A DNA stretch of 64,000 bases from Thermococcus sp. 2319x1 (GTDB lineage Archaea; Methanobacteriota_B; Thermococci; Thermococcales; Thermococcaceae), in the NCBI RefSeq assembly GCF_001484685.1, contig NZ_CP012200.1:1730321-1794320 (forward strand). Reading direction: 5' to 3'. The position numbers were made by a program, and so were the translations under genes. Under the pieces are notes generated by a model that was given only the letters and a program-made list of their open reading frames with translations, ran no database searches and was not told the DNA's origin. Below, piece by piece: positions 1,807 through 12,350 of this stretch (position 1 is its first letter; the number at the start of each line of letters is the position of its first letter).

Positions 1807-2424
1807 CTACTCGGCTTTCTTTTCTTCTTTAGCCTCTTTCTCCTCTGGTGGCTTGGGCTTTGCCGGTGGCTTTAGACCGTAGCCGAGAATCCTGAACTCT
1901 ATCGCTTCACCGTCCCTCAAGATGTATCTTACCCTACCATCTTCAAGGTGCTCTATCTTCGCTAAAGGATGCCTGTAGTCTTTGAACTTTCTAACCTTCT
2001 CCTCCGGCAGGGGAACCCAGTCAAATAGCTCAAGCTCTTCCTCTTTCCACTCGGTTGTGAGGAGATAATTCTCCACATAGCCCAAGGCATTTGTGGGACA
2101 GACATCAACACAGAACTGGCAGAAAGTACAGCGTCCGTAGTCTATCTTCGGGTGGGCCCTCTTCTCGCCCTCTATCCAAGTCATCTCTATTGCCCTCGCT
2201 GGGCATATCTGGCCACACATGTTACAGCCTATGCACGTTTTCCAGTTGAGCGTGTGGAACCCCCTATACTTCTCGGCTATTTGTGTCTGTTCGTAGGGAA
2301 TCTTAATGGTAACGGGTTTTTTGAAGAGGTACTTAAGCCCAAGCCACGGCTTGAGGAATGAGGGTTTCTTCTTAACTTTCTCCTCAGGGGCAACTTTAAA
2401 TTCAACCTGTTTTGCGCTCTCCAT
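1807..2424 (-). CDS. mbxN: MbxN, NuoI-like 2x[4Fe-4S] ferredoxin subunit of the sulfane sulfur reductase
   Basis: This is the last gene of the 13-gene mbx operon. It carries two [4Fe-4S] motifs, CIGCNMCGQICP and CTFCQFCVDVCP, in the layout of NuoI/MbhN, and a charged Lys/Glu/Pro-rich C-terminal tail. In the Mbx (Mbs) complex this peripheral subunit passes electrons from reduced ferredoxin toward the cluster chain and the MbxL site on the cytoplasmic face of the membrane. The ATG at 2424 follows GGTGAT; the frame opens three codons earlier at a GTG that overlaps the ribosome site. The operon's gene order separates it from the related Mbh hydrogenase. Confidence 0.93.
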   Translation of the reverse strand: MESAKQVEFKVAPEEKVKKKPSFLKPWLGLKYLFKKPVTIKIPYEQTQIAEKYRGFHTLNWKTCIGCNMCGQICPARAIEMTWIEGEKRAHPKIDYGRCTFCQFCVDVCPTNALGYVENYLLTTEWKEEELELFDWVPLPEEKVRKFKDYRHPLAKIEHLEDGRVRYILRDGEAIEFRILGYGLKPPAKPKPPEEKEAKEEKKAE

Positions 2425-2429
2425 TTTTA

Positions 2430-3605
2430 TCACCTGTCTATGTCGGGTGGGCAGTTGTCGAGGCTCACCAAAATCACGGACACGTCTGCCAACCTCGCTC
2501 CAACCAAAAGCTGCTCTATGACTCTGATTCCATGGGCTATGCTCGGGCCTCTTATCTGAACCCTGTAAGGCTTGTTTCCTCCATCGCTTACTACATAAGC
2601 CCCAAAGTCACCTTTGCTCGACTCCACGTGAGCGTAAGCGTCTCCAGCTGGCACCTTAAACCTTGGAAGGGCCTTAAAGCCAGCGTGCTCCACCTTGTAT
2701 GGCCCGCTCGGTGGCCCCATTTCAAGGAGCTGTTCAAGGATGTAAAGATCCTGTTCAAGTTCAAACCTTCTTACGAGAACTCTTGCCAAGGCGTCTCCCT
2801 CTCTAAGCACCGGCACCTCAAAGTCAAGCTCTGGGTAAAGGAGATATGGGTCGAGCCTTCTGACATCGGCCCTAACTCCCGTTGCTCTGAGGTTTGGCCC
2901 GGTTACACCTTCTTCTAAGGCAAATTTCTTGTCCATAACCCCAATTCCCTCAAGCCTCTTGAATGTGATGTAGTTCTCAAAGAGGACGTTGTCAAAGTCT
3001 TTAAGTTTGTCTTTTAGATACTCCACAGTGTCCTTCAACTGCCTTAACCACTTGTCACCGGGTATGTCCCTTCTAACTCCGCCCGGAATCGTGTAGATGT
3101 GATAAACCCTCGCTCCGGTAAGCTGCTCGAAGAGCGCCATGAACCTCTCTCTATAAGCGGCGGCCCACTGTCCAGCGGTGTAGACACCGAGCTTAAACGC
3201 CATTCCCATAGTCCAGAACAGGTAAGCGCTAACCCTTGCCATCTCGAGAACCGTTGTCCTTATCCATTGGGCTCTCTCCGGAACCTCCCATCCCATGAGC
3301 TCGTCAACTGCCATCGAGTAGATTGCCTCCGGCACATCTGGCTCGGGAACGCATATTCTCAAAAGGAGGGCTATGTTTGTGTACCATGGCCTGTATTCGG
3401 CAAGCTTCTCAAACCCTCTGTGGAGGAAACCGGGGTTAGCTATGGCCTTGACCACCCTGTTACCGTCCATTTTAAGGATTAGGCTGTAGTTCTCGGTGGC
3501 CATGTGCTGTGGCCCAAAGAACAACTCGTAAGTGTCCTTTTCAAGGGGTAAAAGCTCCATCCCATTTTCTCTCGCTTCCCTAATCAACTCCTGTTGTGAA
3601 ACCAT
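2430..3605 (-). CDS. mbxL: MbxL, NuoD/NiFe-hydrogenase-large-like catalytic subunit
   Basis: This 391-aa protein is homologous to NiFe-hydrogenase large subunits and NuoD. The two CxxC motifs that bind Ni-Fe in hydrogenases are each reduced to one cysteine: Cys85 in RICVPEP and Cys385 in DNCPPDIDR. That is the known hallmark of MbxL, which reduces polysulfide (sulfane sulfur) instead of protons. The C-terminal tail ends at DIDR with no extension for maturation cleavage. GAGGTGA lies seven bases before the ATG. It is cotranscribed with mbxK upstream and mbxN downstream. Confidence 0.95.
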   Translation of the reverse strand: MVSQQELIREARENGMELLPLEKDTYELFFGPQHMATENYSLILKMDGNRVVKAIANPGFLHRGFEKLAEYRPWYTNIALLLRICVPEPDVPEAIYSMAVDELMGWEVPERAQWIRTTVLEMARVSAYLFWTMGMAFKLGVYTAGQWAAAYRERFMALFEQLTGARVYHIYTIPGGVRRDIPGDKWLRQLKDTVEYLKDKLKDFDNVLFENYITFKRLEGIGVMDKKFALEEGVTGPNLRATGVRADVRRLDPYLLYPELDFEVPVLREGDALARVLVRRFELEQDLYILEQLLEMGPPSGPYKVEHAGFKALPRFKVPAGDAYAHVESSKGDFGAYVVSDGGNKPYRVQIRGPSIAHGIRVIEQLLVGARLADVSVILVSLDNCPPDIDR

Positions 3606-3615
3606 CTATCTCACC

Positions 3616-4143
3616 TCAGATCACATAGTTTTCCTTATCCTCTTCAAACCTATCGAGCAGTTTGTACTTCCTCTTGACATAGCCAAGCATGTCAAAGTCC
3701 TTCCTGTGAGAAACCCCGGCTTCTCTGTCCTCATCTTCAAGAATCCATGGCATTTCAAGCTTATCGTTACCCTCAAAGGTTACCTTGTAGAATTCATGGG
3801 CGTCTCTCTCATAAGTTTCTGCTACCGGATAGATGTCCCTAACACTTGGAACCTTTGCCCTATCAACGTCCCTTGGAATCCTCGTCTTTACAAAGGCATG
3901 AACTGCATATGTGTAGCTCCACATCTGGTAAACGAGCTCTATCTCACCGTCCTTTGGCCAATCAACCGCCGTTATCTGCATCATCGACTCAAAGTTGTTT
4001 TCCTTGAGGAGGAGAAGAAACTCCCTTATCCTGTCGGCTGGAATCTTGAATTCTATTCTTCTCTGCCTTCTAACCCTCCCCTCTGCGTACGGTGCTTTTT
4101 GGAGTATGGTATCCACGATTACCTGCTCTTTTTCAAGGCTCAT
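3616..4143 (-). CDS. mbxK: MbxK, NuoC-like 30 kDa subunit
   Basis: This 175-aa protein matches the NADH dehydrogenase 30 kDa/NuoC family, including the conserved stretch DIYPVAETYERDAHEFYKVTFEG. In Mbx it packs against MbxL in the peripheral arm and has no cofactor. The start overlaps the mbxJ stop by four bases, indicating translational coupling. The ending CDS is ten bases before mbxL. Confidence 0.92.
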   Translation of the reverse strand: MSLEKEQVIVDTILQKAPYAEGRVRRQRRIEFKIPADRIREFLLLLKENNFESMMQITAVDWPKDGEIELVYQMWSYTYAVHAFVKTRIPRDVDRAKVPSVRDIYPVAETYERDAHEFYKVTFEGNDKLEMPWILEDEDREAGVSHRKDFDMLGYVKRKYKLLDRFEEDKENYVI

Positions 4144-4727
4144 TGCTCTCCTCCTCCAGTTTCTTTCTTTTTATTCATTAGCCATGGAATCCATCTTCTC
4201 GCGGTTCTCTCCCTCCAGCCCTCACCAAAGAGCTCGTCCTGGTTCTTCTTATAGTATTCGTAGTTTTCCCTGTAGCGCTTCCATCCATCGGCTTTGCCCG
4301 TTTCTATGAGTTCCATCATCTTCTTTATTCCGTCCATCACAGCCTCCGGCCTCGGCATACAGCCGGCTATTGCCACATCCACCGGGATGTACTTATCAAG
4401 GTGCTTTATTGCGTTGTAAGCGTCCCAGTAAATGCCGCCGTTGAGGGGACATGAACCGTGGGCGAGTACGTACTTAGGATCGGGCTGCATCTCGTAGGTT
4501 ATTATTATTCTCTTCAGGGTCTTTGGAGTTACATAACCGGTGATGAGGAAGAGATCGGCCATTCTCGGCGCTGGATTGGGCATCATACCGAAACGCTCAA
4601 GGTCGTATCTTGAGGTCATTAATGGGGGCATTTCTATACCCCCACATCCTGTACAGAATGCAACAATCCACATGCTTCTCTTTCTCGCAAAGTTGATGAG
4701 CGGTTCATACAACCTCCAATCTACCAT
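4140..4727 (-). CDS. mbxJ: MbxJ, NuoB-like [4Fe-4S] subunit
   Basis: The NuoB/hydrogenase-small-subunit family protein (195 aa) carries the cysteines for the proximal [4Fe-4S] cluster: CTGCGGIEMPP near residue 26, GSCPLNGG, and AGCMPRPEA. The cluster donates electrons to the MbxL site. The ATG at 4727 follows GAGGTGG; the frame opens three codons earlier at GTG. It lies ten bases after the end of mbxM and overlaps mbxK by four bases. Confidence 0.93.
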   Translation of the reverse strand: MVDWRLYEPLINFARKRSMWIVAFCTGCGGIEMPPLMTSRYDLERFGMMPNPAPRMADLFLITGYVTPKTLKRIIITYEMQPDPKYVLAHGSCPLNGGIYWDAYNAIKHLDKYIPVDVAIAGCMPRPEAVMDGIKKMMELIETGKADGWKRYRENYEYYKKNQDELFGEGWRERTARRWIPWLMNKKKETGGGEQ

Positions 4728-4737
4728 CTTCTCCACC

Positions 4738-5667
4738 TCACAAGCTTGCTAAGATAGCTCCAAGGGCCGCTATAATTGTGGGCCACTTCCAGTAGAACTT
4801 TGCGGCTTGATCTATGGTGAACCTCGGGAATATTGCGCCAACGAATGTCGCTATCAGCAGTACCGCCACCTGCTTGACGAGGAGCACGGCAAGGCTCGCT
4901 ATGGTGTTGAGTATCGGACTTGCAAATGCCGTGACCACTCCTCCGCCGAGGAAGATGTTGGCGAAGAACAGCGTCTCCGCGAAGAGGGCTATGGCGTGCT
5001 GTATCTGCAGTATTCCCATGTGCTTTCCTCCGAACTCCACCATTGGACCGAGGGATATCTCACCCGGGGCTATCATGATGTCGAAGGGCTCCTTTCCGAA
5101 CATCGCCTGCAGGACAATATCATAGGCTATCGCAGCAAGCAAGAGCGGAAGGTGAATTATGCTCCAGCCCATTGTCTGCTGGGCCATGACTATTTCGTAG
5201 GTGCTGAAGGTTCCGTAAAATTCAGCCAAGGCGATTATGGCAAATCCGAGCGGTACTTGAATCGCTAAAAGTGTAAGCAGGGCTCTCTGGGCACCAATGC
5301 CCGCATAAGGGTTCCCCGAGCTCATTGCAGCGAACATTATTCCCAGCATTGGGATTTCGAGGAGGAAGGTGATGAGGATTAAATCACCATAGGCTCTAAG
5401 GATTCCAATGCTGCCAAGTGGAATGAACATCAGGGCCAATATTGTCGCTCCTAAAGCGTAGATTACGCCAAAGTCGTAGATCAAACCGTGGGTTATGTTG
5501 CTCTTTTTGGAGAGAAGCTTTATTGTATCAAGGATGGGCTGGTAAATCGGGGGCCCAATCCTTCTGTGAATTCTTGCCGTGACTATTCTGATTATTCCCA
5601 TGAACATGAACCCTACAAAGGTCGCATAAATTAAAATTAGGAGAGCCTTCAAAGCGGTTTCAATCAT
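4738..5667 (-). CDS. mbxM: MbxM, NuoH-like membrane subunit
   Basis: This 309-aa, highly hydrophobic protein matches NuoH/MbhM, the membrane anchor that couples the peripheral redox arm to the antiporter-like subunits. RIHRRIGPPIYQPILDTIKLL near residue 32 and FDIMIAPGEISLGPMVEFGGKHMG in the second half are the conserved cytoplasmic loops that face the redox module. It begins immediately after mbxH'. Confidence 0.94.
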   Translation of the reverse strand: MIETALKALLILIYATFVGFMFMGIIRIVTARIHRRIGPPIYQPILDTIKLLSKKSNITHGLIYDFGVIYALGATILALMFIPLGSIGILRAYGDLILITFLLEIPMLGIMFAAMSSGNPYAGIGAQRALLTLLAIQVPLGFAIIALAEFYGTFSTYEIVMAQQTMGWSIIHLPLLLAAIAYDIVLQAMFGKEPFDIMIAPGEISLGPMVEFGGKHMGILQIQHAIALFAETLFFANIFLGGGVVTAFASPILNTIASLAVLLVKQVAVLLIATFVGAIFPRFTIDQAAKFYWKWPTIIAALGAILASL

Positions 5668-5670
5668 TCT

Positions 5671-7524
5671 TTACACCCCCCACAGTGCAAGGATTAGCAA
5701 GATTATTGCCAGATACCACGCGTAGCTTTGGACGCTTCCGTTGTAGATGTAGTTTCTCAAAACCTCGGCCAAGTCCTCAACCCATGCCCCAATGTCGCGG
5801 TAAAGCCTATCGAAGCTTATCCTGAGCCAGAAGGCAAGGGCCTCCTTGAGCGGAAGGAAGAAGTTCCTCCTTATGGTTAGGTTGTACTCCATTGTAACGG
5901 GGTTAGCGGATTGATATGTATCGGTAACTGGCACTTTCCTGACCTTTGCCCCAAGGAAGTAGATTATTCCAGCTATTATGATGCCCACTATGAGGTATAT
6001 CACTATCGCGAGAGCGTTGTACCTTCCAAAGCCAAGGTCGAGGACGAAGAGGTTTCCGCCGATAACTTCCTTTCCAAATATTTTGTTGAGTTCCCTCGCA
6101 ACGAGGCCGGGCGCTATGCCCAGGACAACGTTGAAAAGTGCTAAGATTGCCATCGCTATCGCCATTGGCAGCGGGGCATCCTTGGTGTCGTCAAGGTCGG
6201 TTGGCCTTTGCCCGAACCAGACGGCGTATGTGAACCTTATTAGGTAGACAAAACCTATTGCGCTTCCAAAGAAGACTATACCACCAAGTATTGGAAGGTT
6301 CTGGCTTATAACGGCTTCAAAGAGCACCCACTTGCTGGCAAAGCCAACGAGTGGGGGTATTCCGGCTAAGCTTAAAATCGCCACGAAGGCCATGGCGAAG
6401 GTGAAGGGCATCTTCTCGGCCAGTCCTCCCATGTCCGCAAAGGTCGTCTTGCCCGTTCTGTAAACGATGGTGGCCACTATGAGGAAGAACAACCCCTTGA
6501 AGAGTGCGTGGCTTAGAGCGTGGAACAGAGCTGCCTGCATGCTTAAAGCCGTGCCCACTCCTATGCCCACCAGTATGTAGCCGATTTGGCTTATACTTGA
6601 ATAAGCGAAGAGCTTTCTTATGTCCTCTTGAAGAGCCGCCAAAAGACCACCGACGATTATTGTTAAACCACCGAGGAAGGCTATAATGTAGCCGAACTTT
6701 GTCGTGCTTCTAAACCCTCCAAGTTCGATAGCCAGGCGAGTCCCCATGAGGATGTAGAGCATTACAAGACCATAAACACCGGCTTTGCTTAGAACTCCGC
6801 TGAACATTGCTGCGTAGCTTTGATTGGTCTCGGAGTAAGCGTCGGGCGCCCAAACGTGGAGTGGAAACATTCCCGCTTTAACTCCAAATGCAATGAGGAA
6901 GAGCAGGTATATAAGGGCGCTCTCACCTTTGCTGAAAACCGTATCTGCCCCAAAAGCCGCTGCATAAGCTTCTTTGTACATTGCCTGCTGTATCTGGGCA
7001 AAGTCAAACGTGCCGAGCTTTGCGTAAATAATTCCCAGTGCAATAAGCATCGCATATGCTCCAAAGACACTCAACAAGAAGTACTTTAGCGAAGCAGCTC
7101 TGTTGTAGCGGAGGACCATCATGAAGCTCGCAAAGGTCATTATTTCCCAGAAGATGAAGAAAGTCATAAGGTCGTTTGCGAGGAATACTCCAAGTACTCC
7201 GCTGAGGCTCATTAACGCAAATAACCATTCATAGCTGTCCTTAGCAGTCGAAACCAGTGCCAAAACTGCCGAAAATCCCACCAAAGCACCTATCCCTAGG
7301 AAGAACCAGTTCAATGTGTTTAGGGCAAAGGTTAGCTTAAAGACGCCCAAGTTGAGGACAAAGCTAAGGCCCTCGCCCGTCTTCTGGTATAGCAGAGCGG
7401 TGTATCCGAGTGAGACCCCGGCTCCTAAAACACCAAGGGTCTCTCTAATGCCTTTCATGTCAATGAGCCACGCCAGAGCACCGGCTATTAGGGGAGCAAA
7501 TATAACTAAGGCAAGTTCGTTCAT
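5671..7524 (-). CDS. mbxH': MbxH', second antiporter-like (NuoL/MrpD-type) subunit
   Basis: This 617-aa polytopic protein belongs to the proton/sodium-conducting NuoL/M/N-MrpA/D family. Conserved membrane residues are visible in FWEIMTFASFMMV, in the transmembrane Lys region of LLFLIAFGVKAGMFPLHVWAPDAY, and in FAYSSISQIGYILVG. The C-terminal extension with further helices fits the H' subunit, which takes the place of MbhI and provides an extra ion pathway. Having both H and H' before M distinguishes Mbx from Mbh. It overlaps mbxH by four bases. Confidence 0.93.
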   Translation of the reverse strand: MNELALVIFAPLIAGALAWLIDMKGIRETLGVLGAGVSLGYTALLYQKTGEGLSFVLNLGVFKLTFALNTLNWFFLGIGALVGFSAVLALVSTAKDSYEWLFALMSLSGVLGVFLANDLMTFFIFWEIMTFASFMMVLRYNRAASLKYFLLSVFGAYAMLIALGIIYAKLGTFDFAQIQQAMYKEAYAAAFGADTVFSKGESALIYLLFLIAFGVKAGMFPLHVWAPDAYSETNQSYAAMFSGVLSKAGVYGLVMLYILMGTRLAIELGGFRSTTKFGYIIAFLGGLTIIVGGLLAALQEDIRKLFAYSSISQIGYILVGIGVGTALSMQAALFHALSHALFKGLFFLIVATIVYRTGKTTFADMGGLAEKMPFTFAMAFVAILSLAGIPPLVGFASKWVLFEAVISQNLPILGGIVFFGSAIGFVYLIRFTYAVWFGQRPTDLDDTKDAPLPMAIAMAILALFNVVLGIAPGLVARELNKIFGKEVIGGNLFVLDLGFGRYNALAIVIYLIVGIIIAGIIYFLGAKVRKVPVTDTYQSANPVTMEYNLTIRRNFFLPLKEALAFWLRISFDRLYRDIGAWVEDLAEVLRNYIYNGSVQSYAWYLAIILLILALWGV

Positions 7525-9005
7525 GGGCTCACCCCCATTAGAGGAACGTTCTTAACATACTGGGCAACGTTGAAGATGTCACTTCCAGCTTTCTGCATAA
7601 CATTCCAGAATGGTTCTGGATAGATTCCAATGAGCATTATTAACGCCACCAGCAAGAGCATCACCAATGCCAGCACGCTGTTTTCCTTCACTTTCTCGCC
7701 CTCTCCCTTGAACCATATTGTGTGTATCAGCCTTATGTAATAGGTAGCCTCCACCAAGCTTGCACCCAAGATCAGTGCGACCACCCAAGTGTACCGAGCA
7801 TTTAACGCGGCAAGGATAAGTTGCATTTTGCTCCAGAAGATGTTGAATAGCGGTATCCCAATGATGCTTATTGCACCAATGGTTATTGCAAACGCGGTTA
7901 CCGGCATTCTCTTTCCTAAGCCTTCAAATTTGTCCATTTCTGCCCCTCCAAGCTCCACCGCAACGTAGCCAACTGCCAAGAACATAAGGGCTTTAACTAT
8001 TGCATGGTTAAACATATGGAATACGCTTGCGCTTACACCGCTTGCTGTTCCCAAGGCTAAGCCCACGGCAATCAGACCAACCTGAGCTATACTGGAATAG
8101 GCAAACATTCTCTTGACATTGCTCTGTCTTAACGCACTCATCTCACCAACGATAACAGTGAGGGTCCCCAAGATTATCAGCAACCTTAGGATTGAACTCC
8201 ATCCTTCTGCGGCGCTGAGAATATACACAACCCTTCCGATTGCGTATAAAGAGGCTTTAACCACAAAGGCGGAGAACATTGCCGTCACTGGGTGTGGGGC
8301 TTCTTGATACGCATCAGGCGCCCAGGCGTTAAGTGGGAACTGCTCCGCCTCAACTGCCAATCCAAAGATAAGCAATGCTAAACCTACTTTAGCAGCGATG
8401 GGATTAATTAGATTTGCCAACTGTGCAATGTGAGCCATGTTGAGCGTTCCAAGACTACCGTAAATCAAGGCGATACCGACGAGGAAAAAGCTTGAGCCAA
8501 CTCCTCCGAGGACAATGTACTTTAGAGCAGCTTCACTCGCTTCTCCGGTTTTGTTGTAAGCGGTCAATGCATAAGCGCTGATTGCGGTGATCTCCATGAA
8601 GACGAAGAGGTTGAAGAGGTCTCCAGTGGAAATCATACCGGTTGCACCGAGCATGAGGAGCAAGAACAACATTGCATACTTGTCCTTTGGTTCAACGCTA
8701 ACGGATTTAACGCTAAAGATTGCCATCAGGAAGCTGGCAACTGCAATAACTAAGACGAAGAGTGCTGCAAAGTGCCCAATGTAAAGGTTGATTCCCACTG
8801 GGGGCTTGAATCCACCTGTCATGATTATTATGGGCTTTCCAGTTGAGTAAACCTCGCTAAACACCCATGCTGCAATTCCGGTCTGGATTAGCGTTACCAA
8901 AGCCAAGAAGGGCATCACTGCATTTTTGCTAATTCTCTTGAGTATTGGAATGAAGAATGCACTAAACAACGGTAACGCGATGAGGAGTGAAGCGTACTGA
9001 CTCAT
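7521..9005 (-). CDS. mbxH: MbxH, MrpD/NuoN-type antiporter subunit
   Basis: This 494-aa membrane protein is the MrpD-like subunit of the Na+/H+ antiporter module. It shows the family motifs FVFMEITAISAYALTAY, a Lys/Glu-containing helix before EQFPLNAWAPDAYQEAPHPV, and FAYSSIAQVGLIAVG. It probably translocates Na+ or H+ as MbxL reduces polysulfide. It overlaps both neighbouring genes by four bases, so translation is coupled. Confidence 0.93.
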   Translation of the reverse strand: MSQYASLLIALPLFSAFFIPILKRISKNAVMPFLALVTLIQTGIAAWVFSEVYSTGKPIIIMTGGFKPPVGINLYIGHFAALFVLVIAVASFLMAIFSVKSVSVEPKDKYAMLFLLLMLGATGMISTGDLFNLFVFMEITAISAYALTAYNKTGEASEAALKYIVLGGVGSSFFLVGIALIYGSLGTLNMAHIAQLANLINPIAAKVGLALLIFGLAVEAEQFPLNAWAPDAYQEAPHPVTAMFSAFVVKASLYAIGRVVYILSAAEGWSSILRLLIILGTLTVIVGEMSALRQSNVKRMFAYSSIAQVGLIAVGLALGTASGVSASVFHMFNHAIVKALMFLAVGYVAVELGGAEMDKFEGLGKRMPVTAFAITIGAISIIGIPLFNIFWSKMQLILAALNARYTWVVALILGASLVEATYYIRLIHTIWFKGEGEKVKENSVLALVMLLLVALIMLIGIYPEPFWNVMQKAGSDIFNVAQYVKNVPLMGVSP

Positions 9006-9343
9006 CCCCTCAACCTCCTTATCTCTTCTACATTAAGGGTCTTGTACTTCTCGTAGAGGTTTATAACAACACTCAAGGCCATCGCAGTTGTTGCAACGCC
9101 AATAACTATTGCCGTAAGAACCAGAGCTTGAGGAATTGGATCCACGGCTTTATCTGGAGTTATTCCCTCGCTAAGTATGGGGGCGCTTTTTCCGCTCACA
9201 TAGCCAACACTAATGAGCAGTAAATTAACCCCGGTTTCCATTATGCTGAGCCCAACGAGCATCTTAAGGACGTTCCTCTTTACCAACACTGCATAAAATC
9301 CGATAAGGATTAATGCGATTGAAGCAAAGTAGTAGGGGTTCAT
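9002..9343 (-). CDS. mbxG: MbxG, MrpC/NuoK-like subunit
   Basis: This 113-aa protein has three predicted membrane helices and matches MnhC/MrpC (NuoK family), including KMLVGLSIMETGVNLLLISVG, in which a buried Glu is typical of the family. It is part of the antiporter module between mbxF and mbxH, with four-base overlaps on both sides. Confidence 0.92.
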   Translation of the reverse strand: MNPYYFASIALILIGFYAVLVKRNVLKMLVGLSIMETGVNLLLISVGYVSGKSAPILSEGITPDKAVDPIPQALVLTAIVIGVATTAMALSVVINLYEKYKTLNVEEIRRLRG

Positions 9344-10053
9344 TGCCCTCCCTCCTCGGGCTCTTTAACCATGTTGTCAACGATTCCGGTAAGCTCAGTG
9401 CCGACCTTTATTCCGATTAGGGTGTAGATTATTGGTATGAAACCAGCACTGAAAAGTCTCCCTATATTTTCCCTTCCGATTCCCCATGTTTGCCATATCC
9501 AGTCAAAGAGGAAGTAGCCGCCTATTGCTAAACCTATAAGACCAACCGTAACGTAGCCAACACCGGCGAGACCTTCAAGGGGCTCAAAGATTTTGTGATC
9601 TATTTCGTAGACCGTAAAGGCCAAGTAGAGGAACAGGAACGCTGTTGCGATTGTTGCCCCGCCAGGGAATCCTCCACCCGGAGTCAGGTGTCCGTGGATG
9701 AAGATGTAAGCCCCAAAGAGCATTATGAAGGGTAAAAGGAGCCTTGCACCGGTTGTTAAAACAACGCTTCCCTCTGTTTTTGCAGTTCTCTCCCTCTTCT
9801 TTCTCCATAGAAGGGCGGCAACACCTGTGGAAGCTATGAACAGCACGGTAACTTCTCCCAGAGTATCAAAACCTCTGTAGTTAACGACCACAGCGGTTAC
9901 AGCGTTTACTGCTCCGGTTTCTTCCTTAACATGCTCGAGGTAATATTTGCCTACGAGCATTCTATCTTCTCCGAAGGGAACCTGGTCGAGGGCTTTTGCC
10001 ATCCAGAAACCTATTATCAAGATGAAAACTATGGCGAGGATACGCTTCACCAT
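9340..10053 (-). CDS. mbxF: MbxF, fused MbhE-like and MrpB-like subunit
   Basis: The 237-aa protein combines two modules. Residues ~1-90 match the small MbhE-type domain (NYRGFDTLGEVTVLFIASTGV). Residues ~100-230 match MrpB (LLPFIMLFGAYIFIHGHLTPGGGFPGGATIA). In the Mbh hydrogenase these are separate proteins; the fused form explains why mbx has no separate E gene. The ATG at 10053 overlaps the mbxD stop by seven bases; an ATG four codons upstream is an alternative. Confidence 0.88.
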   Translation of the reverse strand: MVKRILAIVFILIIGFWMAKALDQVPFGEDRMLVGKYYLEHVKEETGAVNAVTAVVVNYRGFDTLGEVTVLFIASTGVAALLWRKKRERTAKTEGSVVLTTGARLLLPFIMLFGAYIFIHGHLTPGGGFPGGATIATAFLFLYLAFTVYEIDHKIFEPLEGLAGVGYVTVGLIGLAIGGYFLFDWIWQTWGIGRENIGRLFSAGFIPIIYTLIGIKVGTELTGIVDNMVKEPEEGGQ

Positions 10054-10322
10054 CTCACCCACCATCCCGTGCCTTCTTCCTCACTCTCGTATCTCTCGGT
10101 TCTCTTTATTGCGAAGATGAAAACTGCAGCGCTCAGAGCGGCCCCTATAGCTGCCTCAACCATAGCCACATCCGGCGCCTGGAGGAAGAAGAAGGCTATT
10201 GAGGCGAATAAGCTTACTGCAGCCATTCCAACTACCGCCGCCAAAAGGTCTCTCCACTCAACCGAGAAGATTGCGGAGAGTATCATAAGAGCGGCTATAA
10301 AAATGGCAACCCAGTCACTCAT
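10047..10322 (-). CDS. mbxD: MbxD, DUF4040/MbhD-like membrane subunit
   Basis: This 91-aa protein has three hydrophobic segments and matches the MbhD/MrpA-C-terminal (DUF4040) domain, with FLQAPDVAMVEAAIGAALSAAVF as its conserved core. The frame extends 14 codons upstream into mbxC, but GGAGGT lies eight bases before the ATG at 10322, which overlaps the mbxC stop. Part of the antiporter half of Mbx. Confidence 0.9.
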   Translation of the reverse strand: MSDWVAIFIAALMILSAIFSVEWRDLLAAVVGMAAVSLFASIAFFFLQAPDVAMVEAAIGAALSAAVFIFAIKRTERYESEEEGTGWWVRW

Positions 10323-10728
10323 TCGTCTCAACCTCCTGGGAGGGTTCTTCCAAACTCTCTCCAATCTCTTCCACTTGCTCCAAAGAATAATTTGCCTCCT
10401 TGTACTTATCCACGACGCTGCCTTCCCATAAAGGCACTCCGCTCTTGTAAGCAGCCCTAATTAGTGCATGCGCCGCTATCGGATTTGTCAAAAGCAAAAA
10501 CACGGCAATTATCAAGGTCTTTGGAATCCATGAATAGCTCCCAACTTCTCCAATGGCCCATATCCCAGTTCCAATGATGACGCCAAGGGACCCCAAAGTA
10601 GCGCTCTTGGTTGCAGTTTGCATTCTGTTGTAAACATCGGGCATTCTAATGAGACCTAATGAAGAGAGCACATAGAAGAATGTTCCAAAGAGCACAAGGG
10701 CTTGGCCAATTATTGAGGCAACGCTCAT
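10315..10728 (-). CDS. mbxC: MbxC, MrpG-like subunit
   Basis: This 137-aa protein matches MnhG/MrpG: a first helix, then LGLIRMPDVYNRMQTATKSATLGSLGVIIG, and a third helix with LTNPIAAHALIRAAYKSG. The C-terminal ~35 residues are acidic and cytoplasmic. It overlaps mbxB by four bases. Confidence 0.92.
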   Translation of the reverse strand: MSVASIIGQALVLFGTFFYVLSSLGLIRMPDVYNRMQTATKSATLGSLGVIIGTGIWAIGEVGSYSWIPKTLIIAVFLLLTNPIAAHALIRAAYKSGVPLWEGSVVDKYKEANYSLEQVEEIGESLEEPSQEVETNE

Positions 10729-10973
10729 AGACCTCCCTCCATGTATCTGGCGAAGGCTATAACTCCAACGAAAGCAAGAACTGCATAAACTAACGCCACG
10801 TCAAGGAATATTGCTCTCCTGTAGTAGAGGGCAAACAGCACCATCAGCCCGGTGGTTAAAGTGGTCATTATGTCCACCGCAACTATTCTGTCGGCTGTCG
10901 TTGGTCCTCTGAAAAATCTGTACATGCTCAAAATAACCGCGATGGCTATTAGGTATAAATAAATCTCTATCAT
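10725..10973 (-). CDS. mbxB: MbxB, MrpF-like subunit
   Basis: This 82-aa protein with three predicted helices matches MnhF/MrpF (YRFFRGPTTADRIVAVDIMTTLTTG near residue 18). It belongs to the Na+/H+ antiporter module. It overlaps mbxA and mbxC by four bases each. Confidence 0.91.
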   Translation of the reverse strand: MIEIYLYLIAIAVILSMYRFFRGPTTADRIVAVDIMTTLTTGLMVLFALYYRRAIFLDVALVYAVLAFVGVIAFARYMEGGL

Positions 10974-11476
10974 TCGAAGATCACCTTCAGGAATTTTTCA
11001 AAGGGTTTTGTTATGTTCTCAGAAGCCCCCTCTACACTTTTGTCTTTAACATCAATCCAGTGGATGAAGTAGCGATCGCCCTTAACATCGAGGGTAATTG
11101 TGCCCGGGGTTAGGGTTATTGAATTGGCAAGAGCCAGCTTTCCAACGTTGTTTGTGAGAACCGTTCTGCACTCAACAATTCCCGGATTTATTGGCCTTTT
11201 TGGATGTAAAACACGGTATGCAACGTCCAGATTTGCCATTATCATTGCCCAAAGGAAGTAGGGTATGTACGCTATGAAATACAGCACCCTTTTCGGATTA
11301 AGGTTTTCTAAGCCTCTCTCTGTAAAAACTTCGTAGGTCAGCGCTCCAACCATTAATGAAAATATCGCCCCGATGGTGAGCTCTTGAGGATCAAGGCTGC
11401 TGGTTAAAAACAACCAAATAATAAACAATATCAAAACGGTGTAGATGTACCGGCTTATCTTGCTTGCTTCTCCCAT
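10970..11476 (-). CDS. mbxA: MbxA, MrpE-like subunit, first gene of the mbx operon
   Basis: The 168-aa MnhE/MrpE-family protein has two N-terminal helices, the segment VYRVLHPKRPINPGIV, and NSITLTPGTITLDV, a family signature. It starts the 9.7-kb mbx operon. A GGAGGG ribosome site lies about nine bases before the ATG, and the promoter with SurR-type sites lies just upstream. Confidence 0.92.
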   Translation of the reverse strand: MGEASKISRYIYTVLILFIIWLFLTSSLDPQELTIGAIFSLMVGALTYEVFTERGLENLNPKRVLYFIAYIPYFLWAMIMANLDVAYRVLHPKRPINPGIVECRTVLTNNVGKLALANSITLTPGTITLDVKGDRYFIHWIDVKDKSVEGASENITKPFEKFLKVIFE

Positions 11477-11521
11477 TTAACAACCCTCCACAAGCCAAGG
11501 TTGAAATTTTTTACACCTAAC

Positions 11522-11530
11522 GTTTCTAAC
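11522..11530 (-). promoter_or_regulatory. SurR-type site overlapping the predicted mbx transcription start
   Basis: The sequence GTTTCTAAC is an exact GTTn3AAC, the recognition motif of SurR, the redox switch of the sulfur response in Thermococcales. It lies about 25 bases downstream of the mbx TATA box, so it should cover the transcription start. Such a position is consistent with repression that is relieved when sulfur oxidises SurR. The site is seen directly; the binding is inferred. Confidence 0.65.
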
Positions 11531-11547
11531 CTTTATTGGGAGATTGA

Positions 11548-11557
11548 TATTTATAAA
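11548..11557 (-). promoter_or_regulatory. TATA box of the mbx operon
   Basis: On the minus strand TTTATAAATATC follows the BRE-like GATAAGG. It lies about 75 bases upstream of the mbxA ATG, and is bracketed by the two SurR-type sites. Confidence 0.6.
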
Positions 11558-11577
11558 CCTTATCAAAATACCAAAAG

Positions 11578-11594
11578 GTTAAAAACCAATGGTT
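11578..11594 (-). promoter_or_regulatory. extended SurR-type site upstream of the mbx TATA box
   Basis: GTTAAAAAC followed after exactly five bases (CAATG) by GTT gives the full extended SurR consensus GTTn3AACn5GTT. It ends about 20 bases upstream of the TATA box in the direction of transcription. The match is exact in all nine defined positions. Confidence 0.7.
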
Positions 11595-11704: not shown

Positions 11705-12205
11705 TCAATAAATGGAAATACGCTTAACACCCTCAAGCTTCGATAGTTCATTTATCAGTTCTCCTGGAATAGGCTTCTCGGTGATTATGGTCAAAGTGGC
11801 CTCCGGATAAAGCTCCGGATCTTCTGCAACAACCTGTACAATGTTTATCCCTCTCTCTGCAATCTTTGATGCTATCTTTGCCAGTATCCCTATGGCCCTT
11901 GGCTCGGGCTCTATCTCTATGACTCCATATCCGACATGCCTTCCGACGAACTTCATATGAACTGTGGGCTCGAGGTTCGTGTATACCTCTCTAAGCTCCG
12001 GGATTTTTAGTATCATGGAAACAGTCTCCTTGACAACCCTTCTATCAACGTCGAGGGCCTTGGCTATTTTTGTGTACGGAACCTCTATGTTGCCGCATTT
12101 TATTTTCATATCATCCGAAACCTTGAGACCGTATTTCAATAACAGTTTTGCTATTTGCTTTCTTACCGGATACTCATCAAAGTAGTGCTCAATTCTGCCC
12201 CACAT
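11705..12205 (-). CDS. ACT-domain protein, predicted regulator of amino-acid metabolism
   Basis: This 166-aa protein has an N-terminal HTH-like segment (residues ~50-75, VPYTKIAKALDVDRRVVKETV) and a C-terminal ACT domain (~90-166, beginning GYGVIEIEPEPRAIGILAKIA). This is the archaeal COG2150-type arrangement, thought to sense amino acids. The start chosen is the ATG after GGGGTGG; the frame opens three codons earlier at GTG. It is monocistronic and its target genes are not evident. Confidence 0.8.
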   Translation of the reverse strand: MWGRIEHYFDEYPVRKQIAKLLLKYGLKVSDDMKIKCGNIEVPYTKIAKALDVDRRVVKETVSMILKIPELREVYTNLEPTVHMKFVGRHVGYGVIEIEPEPRAIGILAKIASKIAERGINIVQVVAEDPELYPEATLTIITEKPIPGELINELSKLEGVKRISIY

Positions 12206-12350
12206 TTTCCCCACCCCTGTTCATAATAGTTCATCATTAGACCGTTTGCTACAAAAGTATTAAAATGTTTCCATGCAGAACTGTGTCCAATTATAGTTTT
12301 ATAAGTTTTGCTAAAGTTTTAAAAGAGCATAACCATTAAAGGGGAACGTT

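Follow-up and report, generated by a model that had tools for sequence, protein, structure and literature searches.

The mbx promoter and its operon

The window, i.e. the whole stretch of 64,000 nucleotides from Thermococcus sp. 2319x1 that was analysed, contains an mbx/mbs operon on the reverse strand (Table 1). The first gene, mbxA, is followed by complex-I-like subunits, and two products of the operon are Proton_antipo_M subunits (5671-7524 and 7521-9005). The available text of PMC12401011 gives two proton-pumping subunits as the mark that sets MBS (mbs/mbx) apart from mbh, and for this reason we assign the operon to mbx/mbs and not to mbh. The gene upstream of the promoter on the same strand (11705-12214) codes for a TrpY-family transcription regulator (NCBIfam NF053754).

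Table 1. Features of the mbx locus. Positions are those of the window; T is the first base of the TATA box on the operon strand (11557).
Feature	Position	Strand	Basis or remark
mbx/mbs operon	1807-11476	-	ORFs; Pfam for 8 of its genes
mbxA, first operon gene, MNHE-type antiporter subunit	10970-11476	-	Pfam PF01899
Ribosome-binding site GGAGGG	11484-11489	-	sequence; same context in relatives
Downstream SurR-type short site GTTTCTAAC (GTTAGAAAC on the operon strand)	11522-11530	-	T+27
Predicted transcription start, A at T+30	11527	-	TATA position and reported TATA-start distance
TATA box TTTATAAA	11550-11557	-	faces the mbx/mbs operon
Likely BRE region, GATAAGG on the operon strand	11558-11564	-	position only
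Upstream SurR-type long site GTTAAAAACCAATGGTT	11578-11594	-	core 11578-11586, outer half-site 11592-11594

The original prediction had claimed an exact GTTn3AACn5GTT and an exact GTTn3AAC at this promoter, placed as SurR-type sites on the two sides of the mbx TATA box. Both motifs are present without mismatch, one upstream and one downstream of the box, and the genome has a SurR gene (see below). The start of the upstream core is at T-29, that of the downstream one at T+27. On the operon strand the long site reads AACn5GTTn3AAC, so that the extra half-site is on the side away from the TATA box. The downstream core, 27 bases past the TATA start, lies where the rule used for SurR-repressed promoters puts it, i.e. 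downstream of or overlapping the TATA box (PMC12162507 and PMC12401011, as far as their available text goes).

AAGG stands directly before the TATA box at a level of at least 90% in the genus of the window. The median TATA-start distance in T. kodakarensis is given as 23 bp in the available part of PMC4247193; counted from one or the other end of the box, this would put the start anywhere from about T+23 to T+31. The A at T+30 is our guess within this range, as it is a purine after a pyrimidine. With such a start, the downstream site of this genus would straddle or touch the transcription start.

SurR and its other sites in the genome

The SurR gene (G000:C1:737169-737858) encodes the PF0095-like C-terminal domain (PF22315) and its product matches PF0095 of P. 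furiosus (PDB 2qlz) with an E value of 3.5e-94 (CTEC versus CMEC). It is divergent from the adjoining gene pdo, which encodes a protein disulfide oxidoreductase (locus L119). Close orthologs of SurR were found in 92 of the 94 genomes of the family that were searched; in G081 the gene is split over two contigs, and eight entries were read through one or two stop codons. G010 and G065, which are 77% and 75% complete, gave weak matches only.

The accessible portions of three papers (PMC12162507, PMC12401011, PMC10025317) describe that reduced SurR binds GTTn3AAC(n5GTT), that it activates from upstream of the TATA box and represses from downstream of or over it, that it activates mbh, and that mbs is repressed by it in the absence of sulfur. 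Long motifs elsewhere in the genome are found before two mbh-type operons (whose first gene is antiporter subunit E), before surR itself, and before genes for thioredoxin reductase, a sulfide-dehydrogenase-like protein and a CoA-disulfide-reductase-like protein, the last of which is probably nsr. The site of surR is 27 bases before its TATA box, as compared to 29 for the upstream core of mbx.

Other occurrences are listed here as observations in their own right. Three overlapping or adjacent long motifs are clustered at G000:C1:1246758-1246806 (L111:1459-1507), and this cluster includes the only GTTn3AACn5GTTn3AAC of the genome. It precedes a short ORF that matches part of a NADPH-dependent glutamate synthase-like protein and is perhaps the remnant of a decayed SurR-controlled gene; the ORFs rule out that the cluster belongs to surR/pdo. 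The second mbh-type operon (L117:1054-1155, G000:C1:520653-520754) has two long motifs, one well upstream and one beside the ribosome-binding site. Finally, paired inverted long motifs at L125, L126 and L128 (G000:C1:1398931, 1475093 and 1809835) could be the ends of mobile elements or belong to other genes.

Chance expectation of the motifs

The long motif occurs once in the window against 0.42 expected, and 35 of 100 shuffled windows have at least one copy. The short motif occurs 27 times against 15.5 expected, a number that is reached in 2 of 100 shuffles. In the whole genome there are 619 short motifs as compared to 1026 for the backward control, whereas the long motif, counted on both strands, is about twofold enriched (26 versus 14 for the control). 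The short motif is thus not above expectation genome-wide, which is why a single short site means little. The weight of the evidence for the two sites comes from their conservation and not from motif counts.

Conservation of the two sites

Orthologs of mbxA were searched in the 94 family genomes, and the 88 that were found at 71% identity or above (one of them partial) provided the promoters for the comparison. The search gave no mbx ortholog in the other six (G010, G054, G081, G082, G083 and G088), which are outside the 88. Two kinds of loci were left out of all counts, i.e. 21 named loci (L031-L051) that match G genomes already counted, and the paralog L052 (Thermobrachium, 38% identity). 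The genera are denoted g1 to g6. We take g1, the genus of the window, to be the T. litoralis/T. sibiricus group, g2 to be Palaeococcus, g3 Pyrococcus, g4 Thermococcus and g5 the T. barophilus group.

The upstream core, defined as the best match between -130 and -88 and free to be placed anywhere in that range, is exact in all 88 promoters; each of 12 control patterns matched no more than 15 of these promoters (range 0 to 15). The register relative to the TATA box became apparent after this search: TTTATAA begins 28-30 bases after the start of the core, exactly in 84 of the 88 and with one mismatch in the other 4. The outer AAC half-site, on the far side from the TATA box, is exact in 86/88. 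The opposite extension (GTT at +14) is additionally present in 14/88 and never alone among the 88, so either extension is found in 86/88.

The downstream core, looked for at T+13 or T+27 (±1), is exact in 65 of the 88 promoters (55 at T+13 and 10 at T+27), and allowing one mismatch raises the number to 86. The corresponding shuffle rates per position are 0.09% and 1.8%. The remaining 23 promoters have no exact core at either place, a point against the double-operator reading proposed below. Among the 50 exact downstream sites of g4, which with 60 genomes is the largest genus, 15 different 3-base spacers occur, a variety that indicates that the arms are held and not the spacer. Both sites are thus supported by their conservation in related species, the upstream one far more strongly.

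We also note a third exact short core (11403-11411) within the codons of mbxA. It is present in 14 of 30 genomes (6/10 in g1, 1/3 in g2, 0/3 in g3, 7/8 in g4 and 0/6 in g5), the 30 being those of the 88 with long loci.

Position of the downstream site in the lineages

The exact downstream core is found at T+13 in g3 (5/8) and g4 (50/60) and in none of the promoters of g1 (0/10), g2 (0/3), g5 (0/6) and g6 (0/1). G024, presumably T. kodakarensis, belongs to the T+13 type. The core at T+27 is exact in 9 of the 10 promoters of g1 and in the only genome of g6, and no promoter of the other genera has an exact core there (0/77). With one mismatch allowed, T+27 (±1) accounts for all ten promoters of g1, the exception to the exact motif being G079, which carries GTTAGAAAT. 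The usual mbs geometry is not seen in g1, where no promoter has a core at T+13 even with one mismatch (0/10). In G093, the g6 genome, the exact core at T+27 is another one, GTTTAGAAC. As a consequence, the two cores are 55-56 bp apart in g1 as compared to 42-43 bp in g3 and g4, i.e. about 5.3 and about 4 helical turns at 10.5 bp per turn. The probable nsr gene and pdo have their cores at about T+13 in the genome of the window (the TATA box of nsr is weak), so the displaced position applies to mbx but not to all SurR promoters of this genome. No description of the mbx promoter in the T. litoralis group was found in the literature searched, as far as its text was available.

The shift amounts to 14 bases, which is the length of GTTn3AACn5. 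Parts of the motif are also seen outside g1: GTT at T+27 is present in g2 (3/3), g5 (6/6), g6 (1/1) and some members of g4 (8/60), and in no member of g3 (0/8), and it is accompanied by AAC at T+19 in 2/3 of the g2, 6/6 of the g5 and 0/1 of the g6 promoters. This GTT overlaps a widespread TTA at T+28-30, which may be an initiator. Within g1, the downstream site is conserved to about the same degree in its arms, spacer and flanks, so its conservation in this genus is no proof of function.

In an rpoB tree of 22 chosen genomes, midpoint-rooted for drawing only, two groups appear, one of g2, g5 and g6 and the other of g1, g3 and g4. Among the forks between genera, only g3+g4 reaches the starred level (97/96), the others having 93/93 and 89/89. 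On this grouping the T+27 core of g1 and g6 would represent either two gains or an old state that was lost elsewhere. The idea that the downstream site arose by tandem duplication (GTTAG...GTTAG) was rejected on the basis of the distance between the TATA box and a conserved TGTAAAA-like element in the 20 promoters of g1, g2, g5 and g6. This distance is 41-43 in g1, 42-43 in G002 and G093, and 34-38 in the other eight; in other words, the g1 value is matched by G002 and G093 and no insertion special to g1 is needed.

A tentative and rather unlikely way to join these observations is a lattice of half-sites, GTT(T+13)-AAC(T+19)-GTT(T+27)-AAC(T+33), whose starts follow one another at 6, 8 and 6 bases and of which the lineages would keep different neighbouring pairs: the first in g3 and g4, the middle one in g2 and g5 and the last in g1 and g6. 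As part of the same tentative proposal, the mode of repression would have changed in g1, with SurR sitting on the start site and TBP/TFB left on a poised promoter. If this were true, the poised promoter of g1 would allow a faster release when sulfur arrives.

Proposed regulation and alternative explanations

We propose that the mbx operon, which serves sulfur respiration, is repressed in the absence of sulfur through a double SurR operator, in a lineage variant of a known system. We put the probability of this reading at roughly 80%; the binding, the start site and the mode of repression we infer for this promoter. Its starting points are direct observations, i.e. the motifs, their conservation, the fixed TATA register and a SurR with its CxxC pair, and the redox switch, the repression of mbx/mbs and the position rule are taken over from published relatives. 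The sites very probably belong to SurR. The arrangement is the normal one of the family, in a lineage form that has its second site at the predicted transcription start.

Without elemental sulfur, reduced SurR would occupy both sites, the long one upstream and the short one downstream, and keep the operon off. Sulfur would oxidise the CxxC pair, SurR would be released and the promoter would fire. In most of the family, a core 13 bases after the TATA start would hinder the assembly of TBP, TFB and polymerase; in g1 the core at the predicted start would hinder polymerase entry or initiation instead.

The first alternative restricts the SurR operator to the upstream long site; the downstream GTTAGAAAC would then belong to an initiator or to the leader and resemble the motif in g1 by coincidence. 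We consider this unlikely, but it has several observations in its favour. Plain letter shuffles of the mbx leaders contain a short core in 1.8% of cases, the start region of g1 is conserved as a whole with spacer and flanks included, the widespread TTA may be an initiator, and both arms of the usual T+13 site are missing in g1 (0/10). However, nearly all other lineages do have a downstream core in one of the two places, the 14-base step equals the repeat length of the motif, and G093 of g6 has its different exact core at the same T+27.

According to a second alternative, SurR would act in two ways: at an intermediate redox state it would occupy the upstream site only and activate mbx, and when fully reduced it would occupy both sites and repress, which would amount to a band-pass. 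The site positions allow that SurR possibly both activates and represses mbx, as the original prediction had suggested, and the upstream core is placed close to the register of surR's own site, surR being reported as a SurR-activated gene in the available text of PMC12162507. The long motif may also bind SurR more tightly. As far as the accessible data go, two conditions gave slightly reduced mbs levels in the surR mutant of T. barophilus (no sulfur at 0.1 MPa, and sulfur at 40 MPa), but the deviations overlapped. On the other hand, when sulfur was absent the same mutant had raised mbs at 40 and 70 MPa (though not at 0.1 MPa), which shows net repression there, and the literature searched, as far as its text was available, gave no clear case of SurR activating mbx. 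We regard the band-pass as improbable.

Less probable still is a third alternative in which SurR dimers at both sites touch each other across the TATA box, as a short loop or bridge, and repression needs this contact. The spacing in g3 and g4 (about four turns) would place the two sites on one face of the helix, and PMC12162507, in its available portion, refers to Hidese 2017 for cases in which both SurR sites are required. However, the spacing in g1 leaves the sites roughly 100 degrees off, which argues against a required same-face loop, and the downstream site is held relative to the TATA box (T+13), the upstream one being displaced by one base from genus to genus. The looping across the promoter that the original prediction had suggested is therefore disfavoured here. 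Finally, chance motifs without function are a negligible explanation, for the short motif is common in the genome but conservation refutes this idea for the upstream site and the downstream one is kept with at most one mismatch in nearly all promoters.

If the double operator reading is correct, the promoters point to the grammar of a central redox switch across an archaeal family, with an upstream site that is exact in each of the 88 promoters and a downstream site that takes either of two registers, 14 bases from each other. The natural T+13/T+27 pair could then serve to tell apart two ways in which archaeal repressors may act, i.e. a block of TBP/TFB assembly and a block of polymerase at the start. 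For the window itself, this is an ordinary and expected regulatory element.

Comparison with known systems

The response of the operon to sulfur has been described in several relatives, as judged from the available parts of the reports. In T. kodakarensis mbx transcription replaces that of mbh when sulfur is present, and Pa. pacificus, P. furiosus and T. onnurineus all have more MBX when sulfur is supplied (PMC6981617). The mbsL gene of T. aciditolerans hardly responds to sulfur (RQ 1.92), despite two SurR sites (PMC12401011). The trends of mbs after sulfur addition in T. barophilus are inconsistent. These two results, and the lack of an mbs increase in the T. barophilus surR mutant at 0.1 MPa without sulfur, agree poorly with the proposed repression.

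The original prediction regarded the double arrangement as seen here in particular. This part does not stand, as the arrangement is family-wide (86/88) and has been published for the same operon in several species; with two or more mbs sites already in print, it is not new. The mbs promoters of T. kodakarensis and T. aciditolerans SY113 are described as having two SurR consensus sites, as in the window, with a regulator of the same family (PMC12401011, citing Hidese 2017, in the text available). The difference is in the position: the accessible text of PMC12401011 places a mbs site over the BRE/TATA, whereas the downstream core of the window is at T+27, at the predicted start.

The partially available texts of PMC8595942 and PMC12162507 give three sites for mbs of T. 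piezophilus (29, 62, 98) and four for that of T. barophilus, two of which carry mutations. Both promoters resemble the window in having an upstream long and a downstream short site, but the downstream distances differ. The downstream site of T. barophilus is degenerate; it is GTTn3AAT in the printed text that was available, and G086 has ATTTTGAAC on the operon strand. The promoters of nsr and pdo, which SurR represses, likewise have their core behind the TATA box, as does mbx; in the genome of the window, however, these cores are at about T+13 and that of mbx is at T+27.
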